DNA from: a virus
Strand: one strand, 5' to 3'
DNA length: 64,000 bases
Virus record (IMG/VR): IMGVR_UViG_3300042691_028844
Span: 1 to 64,000 of that record
Shown here piece by piece: positions 9,455 through 62,991 of this stretch. A program made the position numbers and the translations under genes. Position 1 is the stretch's first letter, and the number at the start of each line of letters is the position of its first letter. Below the pieces are notes generated by a model. The model saw nothing but the letters and a program-made list of their open reading frames with translations. It did not search any database and had not been told where the DNA came from.

Positions 9455-10102
9455 TCAAAGAGAGAAATCAATCGAACCGATAGCGGCGGGAGCTACTTTG
9501 CCCTTTTCAGGGTCAGCAGCTTTTTTCGGTGCAGTCCTAGTAGATTTAGGCAGATAAAGCACCTTATCAACAGTGTAGTTCAGGTAGGTTTTGTCGTCCT
9601 TAGTAGCGCTGGACACTTTGCCCACAGCGATCGTTGGAGTACCGGGCGGCAAATCTGACAGCTGTTTCGACAGTTCGCCAAATGCGCTTAGCTTAAACCA
9701 ATTAGTTTCTTTATCTTCGTTTTGCCAAGCGAGCGAGCGATTCGTTACGGTGGTGTCTTCGAGCTCGACCTCATCTGCTTTGGGGCCCAGTCCCCCCGTG
9801 GCGATAAACAGATTGATCGCTAAAAGATCCTCGTAATTTGTTTTTGGTGTAACTACGAGCATAGGCTGCATAATTAGCAGTCCTTCTGGCGTCGGCTTAG
9901 TGGGACCGATAGCCAAGCAAGTATCGTCAACGTTGAGATCGATTAAGAGCTTGCCGACGTAGTGATCTTTCTGCTGTTTCAGTTGAAGTTTGGTTGGGGA
10001 CTTTCTGTCCGATGCTGGCAGGGATTCAGCGAGGACATTTACGATTCCGTCTTCAACGGAAGCGCTAGCCGTGATTCTGAGGCCCAGAGTAAAAATGTTC
10101 AC
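9455..10102 (-). CDS. ssb: Single-stranded DNA-binding protein (OB-fold)
   Basis: 215 residues from the GTG at 10102, chosen because AGGA lies at a good distance upstream. The frame continues further upstream but would overlap the HTH gene more deeply. The C-terminal half has the OB-fold signature NWFKLSAFGELSKQL...PTIAVGKVSS...LNYTVDKVLYLP, followed by a basic linker and a tail ending AAIGSIDFSL. It should bind ssDNA at the replication fork. The first 38 nt overlap the previous gene. Confidence 0.6.
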   Translation of the reverse strand: MNIFTLGLRITASASVEDGIVNVLAESLPASDRKSPTKLQLKQQKDHYVGKLLIDLNVDDTCLAIGPTKPTPEGLLIMQPMLVVTPKTNYEDLLAINLFIATGGLGPKADEVELEDTTVTNRSLAWQNEDKETNWFKLSAFGELSKQLSDLPPGTPTIAVGKVSSATKDDKTYLNYTVDKVLYLPKSTRTAPKKAADPEKGKVAPAAIGSIDFSL

Positions 10103-10634
10103 GGTGGAGTTTCCTGTAAACTGTTGAGCGGTGTACGTTAAAGGCCTTGGCGATCTGCTCAATGCTGACCCCTTGGCTTGCGTAGGCTAGCAGCATCCGT
10201 GTATCCCCGCCTGTAAACTTTTCGTTTTTTCTCTCTGTGTAGTTAAAGTGATATGGATTTATACACTGTTTGTTGTTGCATATTAGTTTTAGGCTTGAGT
10301 TTTCTCTGGGTATATCCAAGTACCTTAATATTACATTTTTGACGTATAGTCTTTGTTTAAATAAGTAGAGGCACGGGTAACCGTCTGGATCAAACTTACC
10401 TTCCCACTCTGCACAGTCTTTGCGATCGTAATTGCTGGTAGCGAGGTTTTTAAATAAGTCTGATAAGACTGTCGGCTCTGTCTGTTCGTAACCCATCGTG
10501 TATTTATCTACCTGCAGGGCTTTACATATGTCTTGTGCCTGTGCATTCGCATGCCCGCTGTTTAGGGCTTCGATACTTATGTTTACTCTGTTTCGTCCTT
10601 TTAAAAGTTCTAGGGTGTACTGATCTTCCTTCAC
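10065..10634 (-). CDS. HNH-like zinc protein with resolvase-type HTH
   Basis: 189 residues. A zinc/HNH-like knuckle LICNNKQCINPYHFNYTERK lies at about residues 115-135, with C-x4-C and a trailing N-P-x-H typical of phage HNH proteins. The C-terminus is a helix-turn-helix like that of DNA invertases (SIEQIAKAFNVHRSTVYRKL). It could be a homing-type nuclease or a site-specific DNA-binding regulator. Starts overlap by 4 nt with the upstream gene. Confidence 0.65.
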   Translation of the reverse strand: MKEDQYTLELLKGRNRVNISIEALNSGHANAQAQDICKALQVDKYTMGYEQTEPTVLSDLFKNLATSNYDRKDCAEWEGKFDPDGYPCLYLFKQRLYVKNVILRYLDIPRENSSLKLICNNKQCINPYHFNYTERKNEKFTGGDTRMLLAYASQGVSIEQIAKAFNVHRSTVYRKLHREHFYSGPQNHG

Positions 10635-48787: not shown

Positions 48788-49633
48788 GTGCTTTTTGACT
48801 GTTTTTTGTATTTCAACGAACGTGAACTGCTAGAACTGCGTTACGAGATACTCAAAGACGTTGTAGACGGCTTTATTATCACAGACGCTAACAGAACTTT
48901 CAAAGGAGATCCTAAACCTTTTACTTGCGTTGATACTCTCCGCGAGCTGGGGATCCCTGAGGACAAAGTTCAGGTTCTACACGTTGAACTTCCCTCAAAG
49001 GAAGAGATTTTTGATCCATGGGTGAGGGAATACGCCCAAAGGGATGCTCTCGCCGTGGGTATGCGGATGACCCCTCCCGACTCGGTGTTTTTCTTCAGCG
49101 ATGTTGACGAAATTCCTCGCCCAGAAGCGTTACTAGACGCCGCTAAGATCGCTCAAAGGTCCCCAGATCGCTGTATACGCTTATCAATGCCTATGTTTTA
49201 TGGGCGTGGCGATCTGCGGGTGGTGAATCCAAACGGTCGCGATTCGGAAGCACCAAATAATTGGGTTTGCGGCACAATTGTTTTACATGATCATCTACAC
49301 CAAACACTTTCGCAAATTCGTCGTAACCCACGCGATGTTGTTTACGGCTATTGCGACGCCGGGTGGCACTTCTCCTGGATGGGTGACTCAAATCGTTTGA
49401 AAACTAAGGTACAGTCGTTCTCTCACTGTTACGACGACATTCCTAATTCCGTGGCCCCAGCCGACAGTCAAGAATTGCTTGATTTTATGGATCAGTATAA
49501 GGCTGTTGAAGGCGCTACAGATCCGTTAGGGCGCACAGATCACATTCTGGTTAACTACCCGCATGAGCTTTTGCCTCCTGAGCTGTTTAGAATGGATCGA
49601 GTCAGAGATTTTCTGCTCCCGACTGTAGATTGA
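48788..49633 (+). CDS. Glycosyltransferase, GT17 family
   Basis: 281 residues, GTG start. DCFLYFNERELLELRYEILK is the GT17 N-terminus, followed by VVDGFIITDANRTFKGDPKP and VFFFSDVDEIPRPEALL (with D-V-D at the donor site). The closing WHFSWMG resembles that of other family members, which transfer N-acetylglucosamine. Phages often carry GT17 enzymes of unknown acceptor. It lies between small virion genes and the portal. Confidence 0.85.
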   Translation: MLFDCFLYFNERELLELRYEILKDVVDGFIITDANRTFKGDPKPFTCVDTLRELGIPEDKVQVLHVELPSKEEIFDPWVREYAQRDALAVGMRMTPPDSVFFFSDVDEIPRPEALLDAAKIAQRSPDRCIRLSMPMFYGRGDLRVVNPNGRDSEAPNNWVCGTIVLHDHLHQTLSQIRRNPRDVVYGYCDAGWHFSWMGDSNRLKTKVQSFSHCYDDIPNSVAPADSQELLDFMDQYKAVEGATDPLGRTDHILVNYPHELLPPELFRMDRVRDFLLPTVD

Positions 49634-49654: not shown

Positions 49655-51883
49655 ATGCCTTCAGATAATCTGAGTGTCCGCAGTCGATTTTCAGAAATTC
49701 TGGAGGCTGCTAGAACCCAAGATCGTAGTAAACAGTCTACGACGATGGTTGTTCTCAGCCATCTTCAGCAGATGACGCTGCTGATGCTTAAAAAAGGACT
49801 ATATTTTTATTGTGAACAAGATACCTATAATGCTCGAACTCGTTTTCTTCAAGATTTAATCGAGTTAAATAGATTAGACATACGGTTTCCCGCAATTATC
49901 CGGAATTTTTTGATTGACGGCTGCGGATTGTTCTATTTCCGTCCTGACGTTAAGTTAAAGTACCAAATTTATTTCTTTAATAAAAATCAATATAAGGTTT
50001 ATCATGATGTAAACGGTAATATAGAGGAAGTCGTAATTCTTTATAGCTACCAAGTTAGAGGATCCTTGTTGGGTCTTCCCGGTGACTCGACGAACCAAAA
50101 CAAGCGTTATGTTCGGTTGTCTCTGACCTCTGAATTCATATCAGAGTATGAATCAAATACCGAACTCAGTTTTGATTTAGAACCAGGCGGAATTATCAGT
50201 CCAAAGAGTAAAAAACCCAACGGTTTAGGGTTCATTCCCGCCGTGGAGGTTCTGAATAAGCCGAACTCCAGCGGAACTGAAGGCGAAGGGGACTTTGAGC
50301 AGTTCATGGAAGCGGTTGTGCTCCATGACCAGATGATGAGCACTATTGCCAAGAATATTGAGTTCTTCGGTAATCCCACGCTTGTCAGCTCCCGTCCCAG
50401 AAGTGATCTGGTCGAAGCTTCGGATGCTGAGCGCAATTTCAGACCGACTATTAGTAGTCAGAGCGGTTTTGCGGGGCCGGATTCTCCGTCCACGCGTGTG
50501 TCGGAGCCATTCGGCGCATCTTCTGCGCTCGGGGGTCTCCGTGTTCCACGGATTATTGCGAACGTTGAGCCAACGGATCGAGTCGGTTTCATTACGCCCG
50601 ACCCGGTTAACGGAGATATGAACCGTTACTCTCTCCTGTTACGGGAAGAGATTCGAACGGCTCTCGGAGGTGTCGACGAAATTTCTGTGTCGGCTGGTGC
50701 AACCGCGACGGAAATTAAGGGTCTCATGGGTCGGGCTCAGGCCACGGCGCTCCGTAAGAACAAGAGCTTCCTGAATTACGGATTCTGTAAACTCTTGGAG
50801 ATGATTATTTATCACCAAGAGAATGTATTTAGAGAGAGTTTTGCAGAAATTACTGGGCTGAAAGCTCCGCAGCCTCCGGCTGAAGAAACTGAAGAAAGCG
50901 TCACTCTTTATCAAACGAAGCTGGCTAAGTTTGAGGCCAAGCTTGACGCCGCTATTCAAAAAGCAACTCAAGAAGGGAAAGTCCCTCGGGGCGTCTACGG
51001 TCTTCCTCCGGATGGGGATCGTAAAGTTTCCTATCGTTTCCAAGGTGACGTTTACGAAGACACGGCCTACGACATTAATCAGAAGTCGATTGTCGTTCGT
51101 AACCTTCAAGAACTTGGCGTGGATAGCGTCGAAGCTCTTAAGTACCTCTTCCCTGATAAGACTGACAGTGAGCGGGCTGAGATGTTGAAGGGGTTCCCCT
51201 TCCGAATGATTCAGCAGACTCAGAGCGCTTTTCAACAATTTCTATTATTATTGAATCAGATGTTGCAAGTGCCACATCCGCTTCAGCCGAATCAACCGCT
51301 TGCGGCTGATCCCCGGCTAAATCTAACGGCCCTTCTTTATAGGACGTTTGATCACCTTGCGCAAGAACTGACTTACTCGGGCAGCTATGAGCCAGCAGAT
51401 CCCAGCTTCGATCCCGAGCCCGGTATCCCCGGCGGTAGCTCCCTCGCAGGCAGCGCCAATGGCGGATATGGGCGCGGGCAACTACCCACAATGGGTAGCA
51501 CATACCCAGGCGGCACCTTCGGCAACTATGCCGCAAATGCCGTCGCCGGGAACACCGGTTTCGGTCCCTTCTACCAGCAACCAGTCCAGCCAGTCTCAGT
51601 CCAGCTTCTCCCCGAACAATCCGTGGGAAGCGGCTATGAGCAGCCTGGAGCGGGTGGTTTCCCGGATCTCGCCGTCCCCCAGCCAGACAGCACAGTATCC
51701 TTCGTACCAAACGGCGCAGCCGGGTACAACACAGTACAATCCGAGTTTACAGGCCCAACCGGCGCAATATCCGGTGGCCCAGGCTCCGCAGACCTCGTAC
51801 AGCAACGGCTATACGACCCCAACTTCCTCTCGGGGTTCTACGGAAACACCGCAGCTCAGCGCGGAAACCGCCGCCGTCGTTAA
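49655..51883 (+). CDS. Portal protein
   Basis: 742 residues. The first 480 residues follow portal architecture: N-terminal helices, wing (RFLQDLIELNRLDIRFP), clip region and a stem/crown with EEIRTALGGVDEISVSAGATATE and the conserved RAQATALRKNKSF. The last about 165 residues are rich in glycine, proline and glutamine and end GNRRRR. That tail is dual-coding: another gene overlaps it by 497 nt in the next frame. The portal forms the DNA channel at the capsid vertex and binds the terminase. Confidence 0.8.
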   Translation: MPSDNLSVRSRFSEILEAARTQDRSKQSTTMVVLSHLQQMTLLMLKKGLYFYCEQDTYNARTRFLQDLIELNRLDIRFPAIIRNFLIDGCGLFYFRPDVKLKYQIYFFNKNQYKVYHDVNGNIEEVVILYSYQVRGSLLGLPGDSTNQNKRYVRLSLTSEFISEYESNTELSFDLEPGGIISPKSKKPNGLGFIPAVEVLNKPNSSGTEGEGDFEQFMEAVVLHDQMMSTIAKNIEFFGNPTLVSSRPRSDLVEASDAERNFRPTISSQSGFAGPDSPSTRVSEPFGASSALGGLRVPRIIANVEPTDRVGFITPDPVNGDMNRYSLLLREEIRTALGGVDEISVSAGATATEIKGLMGRAQATALRKNKSFLNYGFCKLLEMIIYHQENVFRESFAEITGLKAPQPPAEETEESVTLYQTKLAKFEAKLDAAIQKATQEGKVPRGVYGLPPDGDRKVSYRFQGDVYEDTAYDINQKSIVVRNLQELGVDSVEALKYLFPDKTDSERAEMLKGFPFRMIQQTQSAFQQFLLLLNQMLQVPHPLQPNQPLAADPRLNLTALLYRTFDHLAQELTYSGSYEPADPSFDPEPGIPGGSSLAGSANGGYGRGQLPTMGSTYPGGTFGNYAANAVAGNTGFGPFYQQPVQPVSVQLLPEQSVGSGYEQPGAGGFPDLAVPQPDSTVSFVPNGAAGYNTVQSEFTGPTGAISGGPGSADLVQQRLYDPNFLSGFYGNTAAQRGNRRRR

Positions 51884-52325
51884 TCACTTCGGCATTGAGG
51901 CTCCCGGCATTCTGAATCAGTATGCCACGACCCTCGAAGATGCTCTGATTCAGCAGCAAGCTGTGCTCGAAAGTGTGGCCTCTCGTGCCGCTGCTATGGA
52001 GCACATTCTGACTGACGGTGAGCAGCTCGCTGATTACACCAATCGGTATTTCACTGATGTAGAGCCCATCGATATCGATGAGGCCATTACTGCAGTGACT
52101 CCTGATTACGGTTACCAGCAAAATGCTGAGTACACCCCCCGCTACGATCAGGTTCCCTCTATTCCCGCTAACGCGTCTGCTGGCTCCCGCCCCGTGGATC
52201 CCCAGACTCAGTGGAACGGTTTTGGTAACGTTATGAACCAGAGCCCCGATCAGGCTTGGCGCTATCTGTCTCAGATGAGCCCCGATGCTATCCGTAGCAA
52301 GCTTTTGTTTATGGATCAGGCTTGA
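51387..52325 (+). CDS. Scaffold-like protein overlapping the portal gene
   Basis: 312 residues in the frame after the portal's. The first about 165 residues are serine/glutamine/proline rich and lie within the portal C-terminal coding region. The rest is acidic and helical: AAVVNHFGIEAPGILNQYAT, LEDALIQQQAVLESVASRAA, TDVEPIDIDEAIT. Acidic, helical and located between portal and capsid, it matches a scaffolding protein. Internal starts at 51459, 51528 or 51636 would shorten the overlap but not remove it. A terminator follows. Confidence 0.65.
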   Translation: MSQQIPASIPSPVSPAVAPSQAAPMADMGAGNYPQWVAHTQAAPSATMPQMPSPGTPVSVPSTSNQSSQSQSSFSPNNPWEAAMSSLERVVSRISPSPSQTAQYPSYQTAQPGTTQYNPSLQAQPAQYPVAQAPQTSYSNGYTTPTSSRGSTETPQLSAETAAVVNHFGIEAPGILNQYATTLEDALIQQQAVLESVASRAAAMEHILTDGEQLADYTNRYFTDVEPIDIDEAITAVTPDYGYQQNAEYTPRYDQVPSIPANASAGSRPVDPQTQWNGFGNVMNQSPDQAWRYLSQMSPDAIRSKLLFMDQA

Positions 52326-54655: not shown

Positions 54656-55771
54656 TTGTTCGTCGACAATGATTTTCCGAAGCTGCTCGGCGCCGAATTA
54701 TACCGTCCGCATCCTGCGTACGTTGTAGAAATGGCGGCTGAGCCCGTGGTTGTTCACGACTTTAGTAAGCAACCGGGCCAGACTGTGCAGCTTGACCGCT
54801 ATAGATTCTGGGGCAATCCTGGGTCTAAAGAATCGCGTGAGCGTACGGCAGAACAGACCATCGGTACTGCGAACAGCAGGAACATTGTCAAGGACAAAGT
54901 TCTTGTGACTCTTCGCGAGTACACTGGTCCTGCTGACCCTGGCGATCCTACTCAGCCTAGCACTTTCAAGATTGCTAGAGAGACCTTAATTACCGCTCAA
55001 AGATTACTTTTAGACACAGGTAATCTTACAGCGTTCCATCAATCTATTGGTTCTCTAACTCTCTTAGATGACTATAGAAGATGGCGCGACCGGGTGTTCA
55101 TTAACGAACTCCTGAAAGCTGTCTCGAAGGGTCAATCGTCTGACACCCAAGGTGGTTACTACTACCCTGGCGATTTAGCTGTTGGCGCCCTCACCTATAC
55201 CAACGCCGAACAAGCCAAGTTCGACGTTAAGGACGACCTGCTCCGCGTGGTTAAGAGCCTGCGTAAGCGCAACGTTCCTACGTATCAGGACGGTTTCTAT
55301 CGCTGTGTATGCGATCCGACCTTCCTTATGCACCTTAGACAGAATAGCGACTTCCGTGAGGTGGCTCGTTATCCTGGTAACGGGCAAATTAACCCGCTCA
55401 TGTCTTCGATGCAGCCCAACGCTGCCATCTACATGGGCCAAGGTTTCGGCCAAGCTACCTTTGTAGCAGGTGAGCCGATTATGCCCACCGGCTTCGTGTT
55501 TGAGGGAGTTCGCTTCTTCGAATCCACGAACATGCCGTCTCAGTCTCAGACTGCTTCGATTGCTGGTGCTAGCGCCTCTTACGAAGCAGCTGTTGGTATG
55601 TTCTTCGGCCCTCAAGCCGTAGGCGTAGGCATTGGTGGCAACAACGCTCAAGTGTTGTTGAATAATAATGACGATTTCAGTCGTTTCATCATGATGATCT
55701 GGTCTCTTTATGCCGGATTTGAACTGCTGAACGCTGACTTCGCCACCATCAGTTATTCCTTCAACGCTTGA
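54656..55771 (+). CDS. Major capsid protein candidate
   Basis: 371 residues, TTG start. HK97-fold features by pattern: N-terminal arm, VVVHDFSKQPGQTVQLDRYR, a loop region, FINELLKAVSKGQS (spine helix) and C-terminal GFYRCVCDPTFLMHLRQNSD with a final beta part. It resembles N4 gp56-type capsids in outline. Codon use here is optimised toward GC-ending codons, as expected for the most abundant virion protein, and the next gene has a perfect ribosome-binding site. Confidence 0.65.
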   Translation: MFVDNDFPKLLGAELYRPHPAYVVEMAAEPVVVHDFSKQPGQTVQLDRYRFWGNPGSKESRERTAEQTIGTANSRNIVKDKVLVTLREYTGPADPGDPTQPSTFKIARETLITAQRLLLDTGNLTAFHQSIGSLTLLDDYRRWRDRVFINELLKAVSKGQSSDTQGGYYYPGDLAVGALTYTNAEQAKFDVKDDLLRVVKSLRKRNVPTYQDGFYRCVCDPTFLMHLRQNSDFREVARYPGNGQINPLMSSMQPNAAIYMGQGFGQATFVAGEPIMPTGFVFEGVRFFESTNMPSQSQTASIAGASASYEAAVGMFFGPQAVGVGIGGNNAQVLLNNNDDFSRFIMMIWSLYAGFELLNADFATISYSFNA

Positions 55772-58555: not shown

Positions 58556-60400
58556 ATGGCTTTACTCGATCAGCTGCTTAGAGCGGGAGGTGTTAGCCCA
58601 GCTCAGATTCAGCGTGCTTTAGAGACTGTCGGCACAACCTTACTGCAACAGGGTAATCAGACAGGTCGGGAAATTCTTCGGCGGGTTAATCCGCAGTTAG
58701 AGAGAGCAGTAGATACAACTAGGCAGCAAGGTGCGTCTAGAGCTATTCGTCAATTTGAACAAAATCAAGCTGGACGCAGAGCGGCCGAAGCCGGAAGACC
58801 TGCACCCGTCCCACAGTTTGGTGGCGGCGGGCGTCCGCCAGCTCGACCTACAACTGCTGGTGGATCTGGGGCCAACCGTCCGCCCAATCCTCCTCGGGCG
58901 TCGGCTTCGCCTGAGCCTACCCCTTCGCCCCGCTCCACTGTTTATCAGCCCCCGTTACCTAATCCGCGTGGGCCCAGAGGACAGTATCAATCTATTTATG
59001 GTGAACCGCGTTCGGTTATTGAAGCTCGTCTTCGCAGGGCTGTTCCCATTGAGCAGCCCCCAGCCACCGGGCCTGCTGTTAGTCCCGGTCAGTTAGCTTT
59101 TGACGCTCTTGGGCTGCAAGAGCCAATGGGTCCTCTCAGCAGACAACTACTTGAATCGGATCCGCAAACGTATAAGTCGATCTCGGATCTTGCTGTTGCT
59201 GCTCAGCGGCAGTTTAATGTTCCGGTAACGGTTGAGGATCTGGTTGGCCCTCGGGGTACTTCACTTCTTAATGAGCTTCAGGCGAGTAGCGGCATAGTTA
59301 GATCTTCTGGCGGTCGTGCTGCTGGTTCGCTCTCTGCGCCTCGCGTCGAAGTTACCCTTGACCCCGATCCCAGCGATATTGTCCGTCGTGGATCTTCACA
59401 GGGGGTAAGTCTGTACCCAGAAGCTTCTGATGTTATCCAGACATCCACTGGGGCATACCAGTTACCTCCAGGAGGGGTGAAAGGGTTGCGAGGGTTCGGA
59501 CCTACGGCTAATGCTGTTAGCGCCGTAGGTGAAGATGTTGTCGATATTCGGCCAGTTGTAGGCTCGCTAAGTGATGCCACTGACTTCCGAAACGCTGTCG
59601 GCGGGTTACGCCAGCGTAATCTGGGCCGTTACGTTATGCCCGGTAGTCTCGGTGTAGCAGGCGGTCTTGGGGCGGGAGCCCTTGGATATTTTGCTCTGCG
59701 GGAAGATCAGCCGCCTGCAGGGCAGCGTTTAACCGATGCACAACTGTATCCCCCGCAGGGATCTGCGCTTCCGCTGACTTCTGATGGCGGTCCGAACGCG
59801 TATCCGCCCGCCGCATTCGATCAAGGCTTAGGTTCTGGTCAAACTCAAACCGCCACTACTGGCCAGATGGGTGCGGGCACTGTAACCATTCGCATGAATG
59901 ACAGTGCAAGCAATCAACGGCAAGCAGCTCAAAACGCTGCTGCTGGTGCCGGTATGTTCGAGCCCAGACCGCAGGACTTTAGAACTCCTAGAGAGTTTTA
60001 TACCGCCGCATCCGCGTACGCCCGTCAACCTGGCGTGCGCGAGAACATTGCAGAGCAGTTAGCTCAGCGATCTGAAAGGATGGGGCAGGTTGATATGCAG
60101 GCGTGGGCTAGATCAAATCCGAGTCTCGCTTATCAGCTGTCCCTGCGTAACGCCCCGCGAGACATTTCCCAGCAGACTCCGAATATCCAGGAGGGTGCAG
60201 TTGTTACATCTTTAGGGGAAAACAACGCGAACAATATGATTGGTAATACCGCTGAAGCGGTCAGAGTCGCTGAGGGCGCTCCTTCAGATATTAGGGACGC
60301 CACTGATCCCCGGTTAGCGGTTTCACTGAAGCCCATGCCCAGGGACCTTCAAGCGTTCTTTAATCGTCCTGGTTTCGCGGGCACCTCCCGTCTGTACTGA
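58556..60400 (+). CDS. Large virion-type protein with disordered middle
   Basis: 614 residues. Helical N-terminus (AQIQRALETVGTTLLQQG), a long proline/glycine/arginine-rich region, a glycine-rich hydrophobic helix near residue 370 (LGVAGGLGAGALGYFAL) and a C-terminal motif MQAWARSNPSLAYQLSLRN. That motif resembles LIKWATQNPGLAYREVLKG in the minus-strand protein at 34305-35207. Probably an internal or ejection protein. No enzymatic motif seen. Confidence 0.55.
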   Translation: MALLDQLLRAGGVSPAQIQRALETVGTTLLQQGNQTGREILRRVNPQLERAVDTTRQQGASRAIRQFEQNQAGRRAAEAGRPAPVPQFGGGGRPPARPTTAGGSGANRPPNPPRASASPEPTPSPRSTVYQPPLPNPRGPRGQYQSIYGEPRSVIEARLRRAVPIEQPPATGPAVSPGQLAFDALGLQEPMGPLSRQLLESDPQTYKSISDLAVAAQRQFNVPVTVEDLVGPRGTSLLNELQASSGIVRSSGGRAAGSLSAPRVEVTLDPDPSDIVRRGSSQGVSLYPEASDVIQTSTGAYQLPPGGVKGLRGFGPTANAVSAVGEDVVDIRPVVGSLSDATDFRNAVGGLRQRNLGRYVMPGSLGVAGGLGAGALGYFALREDQPPAGQRLTDAQLYPPQGSALPLTSDGGPNAYPPAAFDQGLGSGQTQTATTGQMGAGTVTIRMNDSASNQRQAAQNAAAGAGMFEPRPQDFRTPREFYTAASAYARQPGVRENIAEQLAQRSERMGQVDMQAWARSNPSLAYQLSLRNAPRDISQQTPNIQEGAVVTSLGENNANNMIGNTAEAVRVAEGAPSDIRDATDPRLAVSLKPMPRDLQAFFNRPGFAGTSRLY

Positions 60401-60402
60401 TC

Positions 60403-60888
60403 ATGGCTGACTATTCCTCGATTGATTACAGCAGCGGTTTTAGTCAACCGTTTGATGCGTTTACAACCCCAGCTAACGCCGGCGGGTACGACTGGAGTCA
60501 GAGTACACCTTTTAGCGACCCTTATCAGCCGTCTATTCAGCAGAATGCCCCAGCGCAGACTAACTGGACAGACATTCTTAAGGGTGTAGGTATCGCTGCC
60601 GGCGGTGTTGCTAAAGGAATCGACGCTTACCGTGGCACTCCTTCCAGACCCGGTAACCCGTTCGATCAGTTTATGGCTCAAGAGGCCGAGAAGGAAAAGT
60701 ACACTCGGGAGAAAGACTTAATTGGTGCTTTACTGGAGGAGTACACCCAAGGTAAAGATAAAAAAGAACAAGATCCAGAAGGTCTCCTTTGGCTAGATCG
60801 TGTTCTCGACCCTACGAAGCGGACTAAAGTTGCCGGTATAACGAGCGATTCGCCGCGCATGGCCGGCAGTATCTTCGGGATGTCCTAA
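60403..60888 (+). CDS. Hypothetical virion-associated protein
   Basis: 161 residues. Serine/tyrosine-rich N-terminus, a small glycine-rich hydrophobic segment (ILKGVGIAAGGVAKGI) and a charged helical C-terminus (MAQEAEKEKYTREKDLIGALL). The plan is a shorter version of its neighbour's. Co-translated with it (2-nt spacing). Confidence 0.5.
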   Translation: MADYSSIDYSSGFSQPFDAFTTPANAGGYDWSQSTPFSDPYQPSIQQNAPAQTNWTDILKGVGIAAGGVAKGIDAYRGTPSRPGNPFDQFMAQEAEKEKYTREKDLIGALLEEYTQGKDKKEQDPEGLLWLDRVLDPTKRTKVAGITSDSPRMAGSIFGMS

Positions 60889-60900
60889 TCCTTTTTCACC

Positions 60901-61455
60901 ATGAGCTCAACTAGCACCAACAAATCGCCCTGCCTGATTGATCGCCCGTTTCTGCGTGGGGCTCGGATTACCTCGTCTACCCAGACCTGTAACCCGAGCA
61001 ATCCTAATCTTACTGACCTTATTCAGTTAGTTCGAGTAGGCGATCTTCCGTCTGAGGATGCTGCACTGATCGAGGATATCACAATCGTCTCGAACGAGGA
61101 TTATCCCGATCAATCAGGCATTCGTACAGCTGACTTAGGTTTGTACGTCTATGCACCCAATCAAGCTGCCCCTTCTACTTCTGCGGCTCTGATGGTTGGC
61201 CGCTTTGAAGTTGGTCTTAGCGGCTCCACCCACGGGTATCCTCAGTCGGTGCAACTGTTCGGCATTAACGCACCTGTTCCGCAAGTTGGGGACACAACGA
61301 TTGTTGCCCCTATTCAGTTAGGCAAGGGCGAAGGTCTTTACCTTGAAAAAGGTTACATCCTCTGCGTAGGCTACATCGGCACAGGACCGACTGCTGTTTC
61401 TGGTGGTTTAAGTCCGTCCGGTATTACTGTTTGGGCTCAGGGAGGTTTCTACTGA
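60901..61455 (+). CDS. Beta-rich structural protein
   Basis: 184 residues, with ITSSTQTCNPSNPNLTDLIQ, then several strand segments (LGLYVYAPNQAA; ALMVGRFEVGLSG; GEGLYLEKGYILCVGYIG). The pattern suits a small tail or head-associated beta-sandwich protein. It precedes the SWIM-motif protein. Function unknown. Confidence 0.5.
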   Translation: MSSTSTNKSPCLIDRPFLRGARITSSTQTCNPSNPNLTDLIQLVRVGDLPSEDAALIEDITIVSNEDYPDQSGIRTADLGLYVYAPNQAAPSTSAALMVGRFEVGLSGSTHGYPQSVQLFGINAPVPQVGDTTIVAPIQLGKGEGLYLEKGYILCVGYIGTGPTAVSGGLSPSGITVWAQGGFY

Positions 61456-61458
61456 TTT

Positions 61459-62991
61459 GTGCCCAAAAAATCTAACGGCGACAACTTTAGTTTAAAAAGG
61501 AGCCGAGGGGAAAAACCAATCCCCAAGGTTCCTAAGTTTACTGGAGCGGACACACCGCATCAGCTATCCCAGCCGATGCCGTTTAAGCGCAGGTTTCGCC
61601 CTGTCGTAGGTACAAAGAACTTCAGTCTTCTAAGTGAATATGATTACGCATCTTTGTGGTCTCGTTGGAGGCGAGGATACGAACTGTCGATGTATGCGCA
61701 GCAAGCATACAAAGGCGTAAATTACAGCTTCAAGTACTTCTACAGCGGAACAGCTGGAATAGGGTCTTACAGCCCAGGGTACGTTTATTTGTACCCAACT
61801 ACCCGAACTGACGACCGAATGTGGTCTGTCATTATTCAGCCTGAAAAAAATATAAGTTTCAAAGATTTTAGTTTAAGCATAGCGTCTGTAACGAATTACT
61901 CTGATACAGTTTATGCTGTACAGTTTTCCGATAATTTTGGGCTGCCTTTTTCACAGCTTCATGGCGACACACTGGCTAATAAGTTCACAGCGGGCGGGGT
62001 TGAAAAAGTAACTGGGTACAACAACTACACCGTCATCGGCGTGGGGAATAACGGTGTATTGGAGGCAAATCCTGATTACACACAGTATTTCAACACTTTA
62101 TTTTTAGATCACAGTCAAGCTAATAGCTGGGAAGTTGTTGACTCGAAGACTCTTAAAGTTCCAGCCTCTGGTCCTCCTGCCGTAGGCGAATTTTTGTGTA
62201 CTAACTTCAAAGCTCAATGTACTTGTCCTGATTTTGTTGGTAGAGAAACTGTTAATCTTTACGACATATCACTTAAAAAACGTTACCCCTACACTCCCCC
62301 TATCGACATGAAGCCGGGATTCTCTGATGCCGGTTCTCAGTCAGCGGAAGGACGAATTATAGATTCTATTGATAATCCTGGTTGGTCTAGGGCTTTTGGT
62401 TTTATATATCTGAACGAGATCTTTGAAATGCCTAGTTACAGCGAACGAGCGTATTCAGATCCTAATTTATTTTATTTTCAACCAAAGTGGTGTAAACATG
62501 TGTATGCCGCTGTGTTCGACTTATCTCGCACACCGAATCAAACAGCTCTTACTTCAATTTATCTACCTCAGCCAAATGACGAGCCGACCCACCCGGCTTA
62601 CCGAGAAATGTTTGACCGTGAACTAGGCAAGCAGACTGATTTTTTTGAGAGGGAACGGGACTATCGCTGGTGGCTGCGTTTTGGCCCCACGAAGCAGACA
62701 CTCCCTTCGCATATTATGCAGCCTGACACGTACAACGTGTTTTCTAAGGTAACTAACATTGGAACACTAGACAGCCCGAGCGCCGCCGTGGCATCCGGAC
62801 TCTCATTCCTTGATGTAAATTCTTACAGCCCTTTTATTCCTTCTAGTGGCGTCGATTCTTATGTCAGTGATATATATGCTAGTGGTGTGTTGGCGACCTT
62901 CGATGCTGTTAACATAATTGACGGGGGGACGTATGCTAGCGGCGTACTTACATCACCATCTGCATACGCTATTAACGGAGGCACGTATTAG
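61459..62991 (+). CDS. Structural protein with a split SWIM-type zinc motif
   Basis: 510 residues, GTG start. AQCTCPDFVGRETVNLY (C-x-C) near residue 255 and KWCKHVYAAVF (C-x-H) near 350 form a SWIM-type motif split by about 90 residues. Similar CTCPDF...CKH pairs occur in structural proteins of cyanophages, as I recall. The C-terminus contains TYASGVL and INGGTY repeats like those in the following fibre. Probably a tail or baseplate-like component. Confidence 0.6.
   Translation: MPKKSNGDNFSLKRSRGEKPIPKVPKFTGADTPHQLSQPMPFKRRFRPVVGTKNFSLLSEYDYASLWSRWRRGYELSMYAQQAYKGVNYSFKYFYSGTAGIGSYSPGYVYLYPTTRTDDRMWSVIIQPEKNISFKDFSLSIASVTNYSDTVYAVQFSDNFGLPFSQLHGDTLANKFTAGGVEKVTGYNNYTVIGVGNNGVLEANPDYTQYFNTLFLDHSQANSWEVVDSKTLKVPASGPPAVGEFLCTNFKAQCTCPDFVGRETVNLYDISLKKRYPYTPPIDMKPGFSDAGSQSAEGRIIDSIDNPGWSRAFGFIYLNEIFEMPSYSERAYSDPNLFYFQPKWCKHVYAAVFDLSRTPNQTALTSIYLPQPNDEPTHPAYREMFDRELGKQTDFFERERDYRWWLRFGPTKQTLPSHIMQPDTYNVFSKVTNIGTLDSPSAAVASGLSFLDVNSYSPFIPSSGVDSYVSDIYASGVLATFDAVNIIDGGTYASGVLTSPSAYAINGGTY

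Follow-up and report, generated by a model that had tools for sequence, protein, structure and literature searches.

A long out-of-frame overlap between the portal gene and a probable scaffolding gene, conserved in S-EIV1-like cyanophages

Introduction

Can a single stretch of DNA encode, in two different frames, both the end of a phage portal protein and the beginning of a second, scaffold-like protein? The question is raised by a window of 64,000 nucleotides (positions 1 to 64,000 of the 86.6-kb IMG/VR virus record IMGVR_UViG_3300042691_028844) from a relative of cyanophage S-EIV1. Here the portal ORF (49655–51883, plus strand, 742 aa) shares 497 nt (51387–51883, plus strand) with the gene that directly follows it, ORF2 (51387–52325, plus strand, 312 aa), which is read in the +1 frame relative to the portal. 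Long overlaps between different frames are mostly associated with very small genomes. A preliminary description of the locus, made from the sequence alone, proposed dual coding of the portal tail and the N-terminal half of a scaffold-like protein. It named synonymous-site constraint in homologues as a check, and homologues with stops in one frame as a refutation, and it kept a frameshift fusion of the two proteins as an alternative.

Results

The identity of the first gene as a portal is firm. It matches phrog_20475 (1.7e-158) and phrog_64, a portal family (1.7e-08). Among solved portals compared by Foldseek with its AlphaFold model, that of 80alpha is the best match (E 1.3e-10), with T7, SPP1 and cyanophage P-SCSP1u also matching below 1e-8 and many further portals at E below 1e-6. 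The portal fold is present in the predicted structure. The nearest isolate to the window is S-EIV1 (KJ410740), the only relative found among the phage isolates searched. Its portal (AHV82224) is 45% identical to that of the window (E 4e-156), and its hypothetical protein AHV82225 is homologous to the C-terminal half of ORF2 (28% identity, E 9e-8). The window's major capsid protein (54656–55771, plus strand; phrog_1357, 4.8e-22) is 68% identical to the product of S-EIV1 60859–61986. The same overlap is present in S-EIV1, with a length of 554 nt, and its length ranges over the group from about 460 to 690 nt.

An open frame inside another gene could simply be a product of chance, and we therefore resampled the synonymous codons of the portal tail and scored the openness of the +1 frame. 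For the window alone, the frame is open by chance with P = 0.19, and window-only openness is thus weak evidence. Across 14 representatives of four lineages, chance P lies between <0.0005 and 0.64, and the actual sequence has an open frame in every one of the 14. A broader view comes from a census of 209 distinct portals whose stop lies inside the contig, collected by scanning viral contigs four times; in the last three rounds the search patterns were confined to the portal core, so these rounds did not select for the overlap. The portals fall into four clusters of 86, 69, 37 and 17 members, which we treat as four lineages, with portal-core identity of 46–54%. In 208 of the 209, the +1 frame stays open for 461–695 nt leading up to the portal stop; in the exception (L227), the portal seems to stop early, 9 nt from a contig edge. 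Taken together with the drop in synonymous diversity in all four lineages described below, this openness places conservation of the +1 frame far beyond chance.

If both frames are translated, synonymous changes in the portal should be restricted within the overlap, and this is what the alignments show. Synonymous codon diversity in the portal frame falls from 0.52 outside the overlap to 0.19 inside it in the window lineage (41 non-redundant sequences, p 3.5e-40) and from 0.49 to 0.20 in the S-EIV1 lineage (32 sequences, p 3e-40). The corresponding values are 0.52 and 0.25 in a third lineage (16 sequences, p 2e-23) and 0.57 and 0.26 in a fourth (25 sequences, p 7e-31). Columns within a single alignment are not fully independent, but the two sets compared here have the same tree in common. 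In each of the four lineages the drop coincides with the point where the overlap begins, and the mirror image is seen in the ORF2 frame, where synonymous diversity rises past the portal stop. It is the third codon position of the portal that is affected (diversity 0.53 to 0.23 in the overlap), while positions 1 and 2 show no fall.

Selection on each frame was assessed in the two largest lineages with an OLGenie-like count, in which substitutions are classed by their effect in both frames, using code written for this analysis. For the ORF2 frame, dNN/dNS is 0.40 [0.30–0.52] in the window lineage and 0.34 [0.28–0.42] in the S-EIV1 lineage, against 0.77 and 0.80, respectively, for the same frame read as a phantom in the portal core. 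For the portal frame, it is 0.40 [0.30–0.51] and 0.56 [0.44–0.69], whereas a phantom frame beyond the portal stop gives 1.53 and 1.23. The same count in the same two lineages found no purifying selection in the third frame of the overlap. Purifying selection in both frames beyond the phantom controls indicates that both products of the overlap are selected. Comparative sequence analysis thus shows that the portal/ORF2 overlap is genuine dual coding, conserved in four lineages; there are no proteomic or ribosome data for it. As for the preliminary description, its coordinates, frames and 497-bp overlap held, and its proposal of dual coding is supported: the constraint that it had suggested as a check is found in four lineages, and the stops that would have refuted it are not seen in the census.

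A rival explanation is that ORF2 starts only after the portal stop, and that the low synonymous diversity reflects RNA structure or composition. This would agree with the deposited S-EIV1 record, where AHV82225 has 133 aa, and a 6-bp hairpin (CUCGGG/CCCGAG) can be drawn at the ORF2 start. That hairpin, however, is no better than those of shuffled sequences (z -0.62; z +1.92 for a longer stretch) and was rejected. The constraint is also frame-specific: whether a change is retained depends on what it does to ORF2 residues read in the +1 frame, with no such dependence in the third frame, and the N-terminal motifs of ORF2 are kept across lineages. We regard a post-stop start as all but excluded.

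Where, then, does translation of the dual-coding ORF2 begin? Three lineages have ATG as the homologous start codon and the fourth has GTG. In the S-EIV1 lineage the start codon is preceded, seven bases upstream, by AAGGAG or CAGGAG, within a near-invariant AAGGAGATGAGTT-ATG, and in the L160 lineage, ten bases upstream, by AAGGAG, within a near-invariant AAGGAGTTAAGTTACA-GTG; these Shine–Dalgarno bases double as portal codons for K/Q-E. In the window lineage, no clear or strong Shine–Dalgarno sequence was found before the ORF2 ATG in the stretch examined (51374–51386). Every codon from −13 to the start is nonetheless identical in 40 or 41 of 41 sequences, and the start site TACTCGGGCAGCT-ATG (51374–51389, plus strand) is near-invariant at portal synonymous sites. 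The 13 bases at 51374–51386 are thus an observation in their own right, near-invariant despite the absence of a clear Shine–Dalgarno sequence. Three later starts had also been put forward as candidates, at 51459, 51528 and 51636. Many members of the window lineage have them but others do not, and the constraint begins upstream of 51387, so that only 51387 is supported.

The alternative route is a programmed +1 frameshift, within the overlap or at the portal stop, which would yield a portal–ORF2 fusion without any separate ORF2 start. In its favor, the frames stand in a +1 relation and both are open through the overlap, and one lineage has a uniform TCT-TGA context at the portal stop. Against it, the ORF2 start codon is kept in all four lineages, two of them have a strong Shine–Dalgarno sequence, and the window lineage has invariant upstream nucleotides; frameshifting needs neither a conserved start nor a Shine–Dalgarno sequence. 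A +1-frame stop also lies just upstream of the ORF2 start in most genomes. This stop is missing in a few (L162, L193, L206 and L210), and it is probably incidental for that reason. Finally, the context of the portal stop varies by lineage (TAA, TGA or TAG), no conserved shift site common to the lineages was found there, and a +1 shift at the portal stop was rejected on this ground. A fusion by frameshifting therefore appears very unlikely. Separate internal initiation at the ORF2 start is the favored route, given the conserved start codon and the strong Shine–Dalgarno sequence in two lineages, and we consider it likely, while noting that it is inferred.

The position of the overlap relative to the portal fold could explain how two frames are accommodated. 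The structured core of the portal comprises residues 1–574 (49655–51376, plus strand), with the confident fold stopping at about residue 573–574 and pLDDT below 50 from residue 570. The overlap begins at codon 578 and hence coincides with the predicted disordered tail of 165 aa, rich in G, P, N, Q and S (residues 578–742 plus the stop; 51386–51883, plus strand), which combines low pLDDT with purifying selection. Conserved elements stand out within this tail. The motif GPFYQQPVQPVS (51563–51598, plus strand), read from the other frame of the DNA shared with ORF2, is kept within the window lineage in the alignments. Further downstream, GSADLVQQRLYDPNFLSGFYG (51782–51844, plus strand) has a GSADL core that is also present in S-EIV1. 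G710 and D713 are invariant in an alignment of 46 portals, and a short helix is predicted at residues 713–720 of the AlphaFold model. The preliminary description had the portal end in SADLVQQRLYDPNFLSGFYG, but this motif (residues 710–730) is not the terminus and precedes NTAAQRGNRRRR. Both shared parts, which the same description saw as low in complexity, are predicted to be disordered, with short conserved motifs.

The model of ORF2 is weak overall, with a mean pLDDT of 52. Its N-terminal half is rich in P, Q, S, T and A; residues 1–165 fall within the dual-coding overlap, and residues 1–157 are predicted to be disordered save for one helix (79–93) at the motif NPWEAAMSSLERVVS (51618–51665, plus strand), in which P79, W80 and A83 are invariant across 74 sequences. 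The C-terminal half is helical, with helices predicted at 159–221 and 272–311, and acidic in all four lineages (pI 4.1–4.4). The best-predicted part is the helical pair at residues 272–311 (52200–52319, plus strand), with pLDDT of 92–95 over residues 271–300, a possible coat-binding domain. No match of ORF2 to a known family was found in Pfam, PHROGs or the PDB, by sequence or by fold; known scaffold families are themselves mostly unrelated to one another in sequence.

Gene order adds to these features. The position of ORF2 between portal and major capsid protein holds in all lineages where the latter was found downstream. In the S-EIV1 lineage, only 112–199 nt separate ORF2 from the start of the major capsid gene in 31 genomes, and in the three of these that were inspected no ORF of at least 35 aa lies between the two. 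Outside these genomes, small or variable ORFs intervene: the major capsid gene lies 2.3 kb downstream of ORF2 in the window, with other ORFs between, and 3.5–4.6 kb downstream in the L160 lineage, a looser spacing than the classic portal–scaffold–capsid order. Gene order and the acidic helical C-terminal half make a scaffold the most probable role of ORF2. We consider it likely that ORF2 is the capsid scaffolding protein; the scaffold-like label is inferred, resting on gene order, acidity and predicted helices, without coat-binding or procapsid data.

It is also possible that the dual coding is real and ORF2 is another head protein, such as a minor capsid, internal or decoration protein or a portal-associated chaperone. 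The lack of a scaffold family match and the extra ORFs before the major capsid gene in the window and the L160 lineage would speak for this. However, ORF2 is the sole candidate between portal and major capsid protein in the S-EIV1-lineage genomes with the 112–199 nt gap, and it is acidic and helical with a confident C-terminal helical pair, as scaffolds should be. We therefore hold this alternative to be unlikely.

Discussion

We propose that the head module of S-EIV1-like cyanophages carries an ancient out-of-frame overlap of two genes that has become fixed. In this model, ribosomes that stay in the portal frame would make the full portal, with a folded core from residue 1 to about 574 and then the disordered tail of 165 aa, while other ribosomes on the same mRNA would initiate within the portal gene, using the ATG at 51387 in the +1 frame, to produce the 312-aa ORF2. 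The disordered N-terminal half of ORF2 would come from the portal-tail DNA and its acidic helical C-terminal half mostly from DNA after the portal stop. As a scaffold, ORF2 would bind the coat protein through its C-terminal helices, and its disordered arm would carry short linear motifs (YPQ and the NPWEAA helix). Disorder in both shared segments, with constraint resting mainly on short motifs, may be what makes the overlap tolerable, which is itself an inference. We consider the model as a whole to be likely; how ORF2 is expressed, its scaffold role and what the two tails do are inferred.

A bolder reading is that the overlap itself is functional, with the portal tail and the ORF2 arm binding each other, or their dosage coupled via shared translation. 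If so, portal incorporation during procapsid assembly would be built into the gene overlap, a new organizing principle for phage head assembly. We regard this as unlikely, but it is not excluded.

How does the proposed arrangement of portal and internally initiated ORF2 compare with known systems? The scaffold genes of lambda (C/Nu3), Mu (I/Z) and herpesviruses (UL26/UL26.5) are nested in-frame and expressed by internal initiation. ORF2 would resemble them in being a scaffold whose translation starts within a preceding head gene; in those systems, however, the frame is the same, the upstream gene is a protease and amino acids are shared, whereas the frame here is different and the upstream gene is the portal. 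Rz/Rz1 of lambda and D/E and A/B of phiX174 are out-of-frame phage overlaps on one strand, and like portal/ORF2 they encode two unrelated proteins in different frames of one DNA stretch. They involve lysis genes or a tiny, size-limited ssDNA phage, whereas both genes of the present pair belong to the head module of a dsDNA phage whose genome is about 80 kb. T7-like phages and P22 have portal–scaffold–capsid cassettes, with the same gene order and an acidic helical scaffold-like protein beside the portal. They are not known to have a long out-of-frame portal/scaffold overlap, and no sequence similarity between ORF2 and their scaffolds was found. No report of an out-of-frame portal–scaffold overlap was found in the open-access literature searched, which did not include the S-EIV1 genome paper. 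Overlapping genes and in-frame nested scaffolds are thus already known, and within that literature a long, deeply conserved out-of-frame overlap of portal and scaffold-like genes appears to be unreported.

Codon usage does not polarize the age of the frames, since within the overlap neither frame is typical and the signal differs between lineages, and the origin of the overlap is thus undetermined. Three additional scans of viral contigs, starting from other lineages, yielded no relative that lacks the overlap: they gave only four lineages, each of which has it. An overlap of about 460–690 nt is thus fixed across four deeply diverged lineages of widespread cyanophages with genomes of about 80 kb. 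It offers a clean natural system for the overprinting of disordered regions, and it raises the question of why portal and scaffold stay locked together. There is also a practical consequence, as annotation hides half of a probable scaffold protein. The S-EIV1 record does not recognize the overlap and truncates ORF2, annotating it from 59863, after the portal stop. The conserved start lies at 59287 of that record, with AAGGAG upstream, and 59287–60264 would encode about 325 aa. Since the isolate carries both the overlap and a strong start signal, a cultured phage is available for testing.

Several minor observations concern neighboring genes. In contig L113 (9451–10711), the major capsid gene is split at about residue 90 by an insert encoding a LAGLIDADG_2 endonuclease (9874–10620, Pfam 2.7e-14); the insert gave no Rfam intron match, and whether it is an intron or an intein is undecided. 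In the L160 lineage, the interval separating ORF2 from the major capsid gene encodes a matrixin-like metallopeptidase (Pfam 5.9e-08) and a sigma-70 factor (L160, 9447–11049). The S-EIV1 major capsid gene (60859–61986, plus strand) seems to be mis-annotated, as a minus-strand ORF (AHV82227) and a fragment (AHV82228) cover the locus. In the window, a family 17 glycosyltransferase gene (48788–49633, Pfam 2e-18) lies directly upstream of the portal gene.
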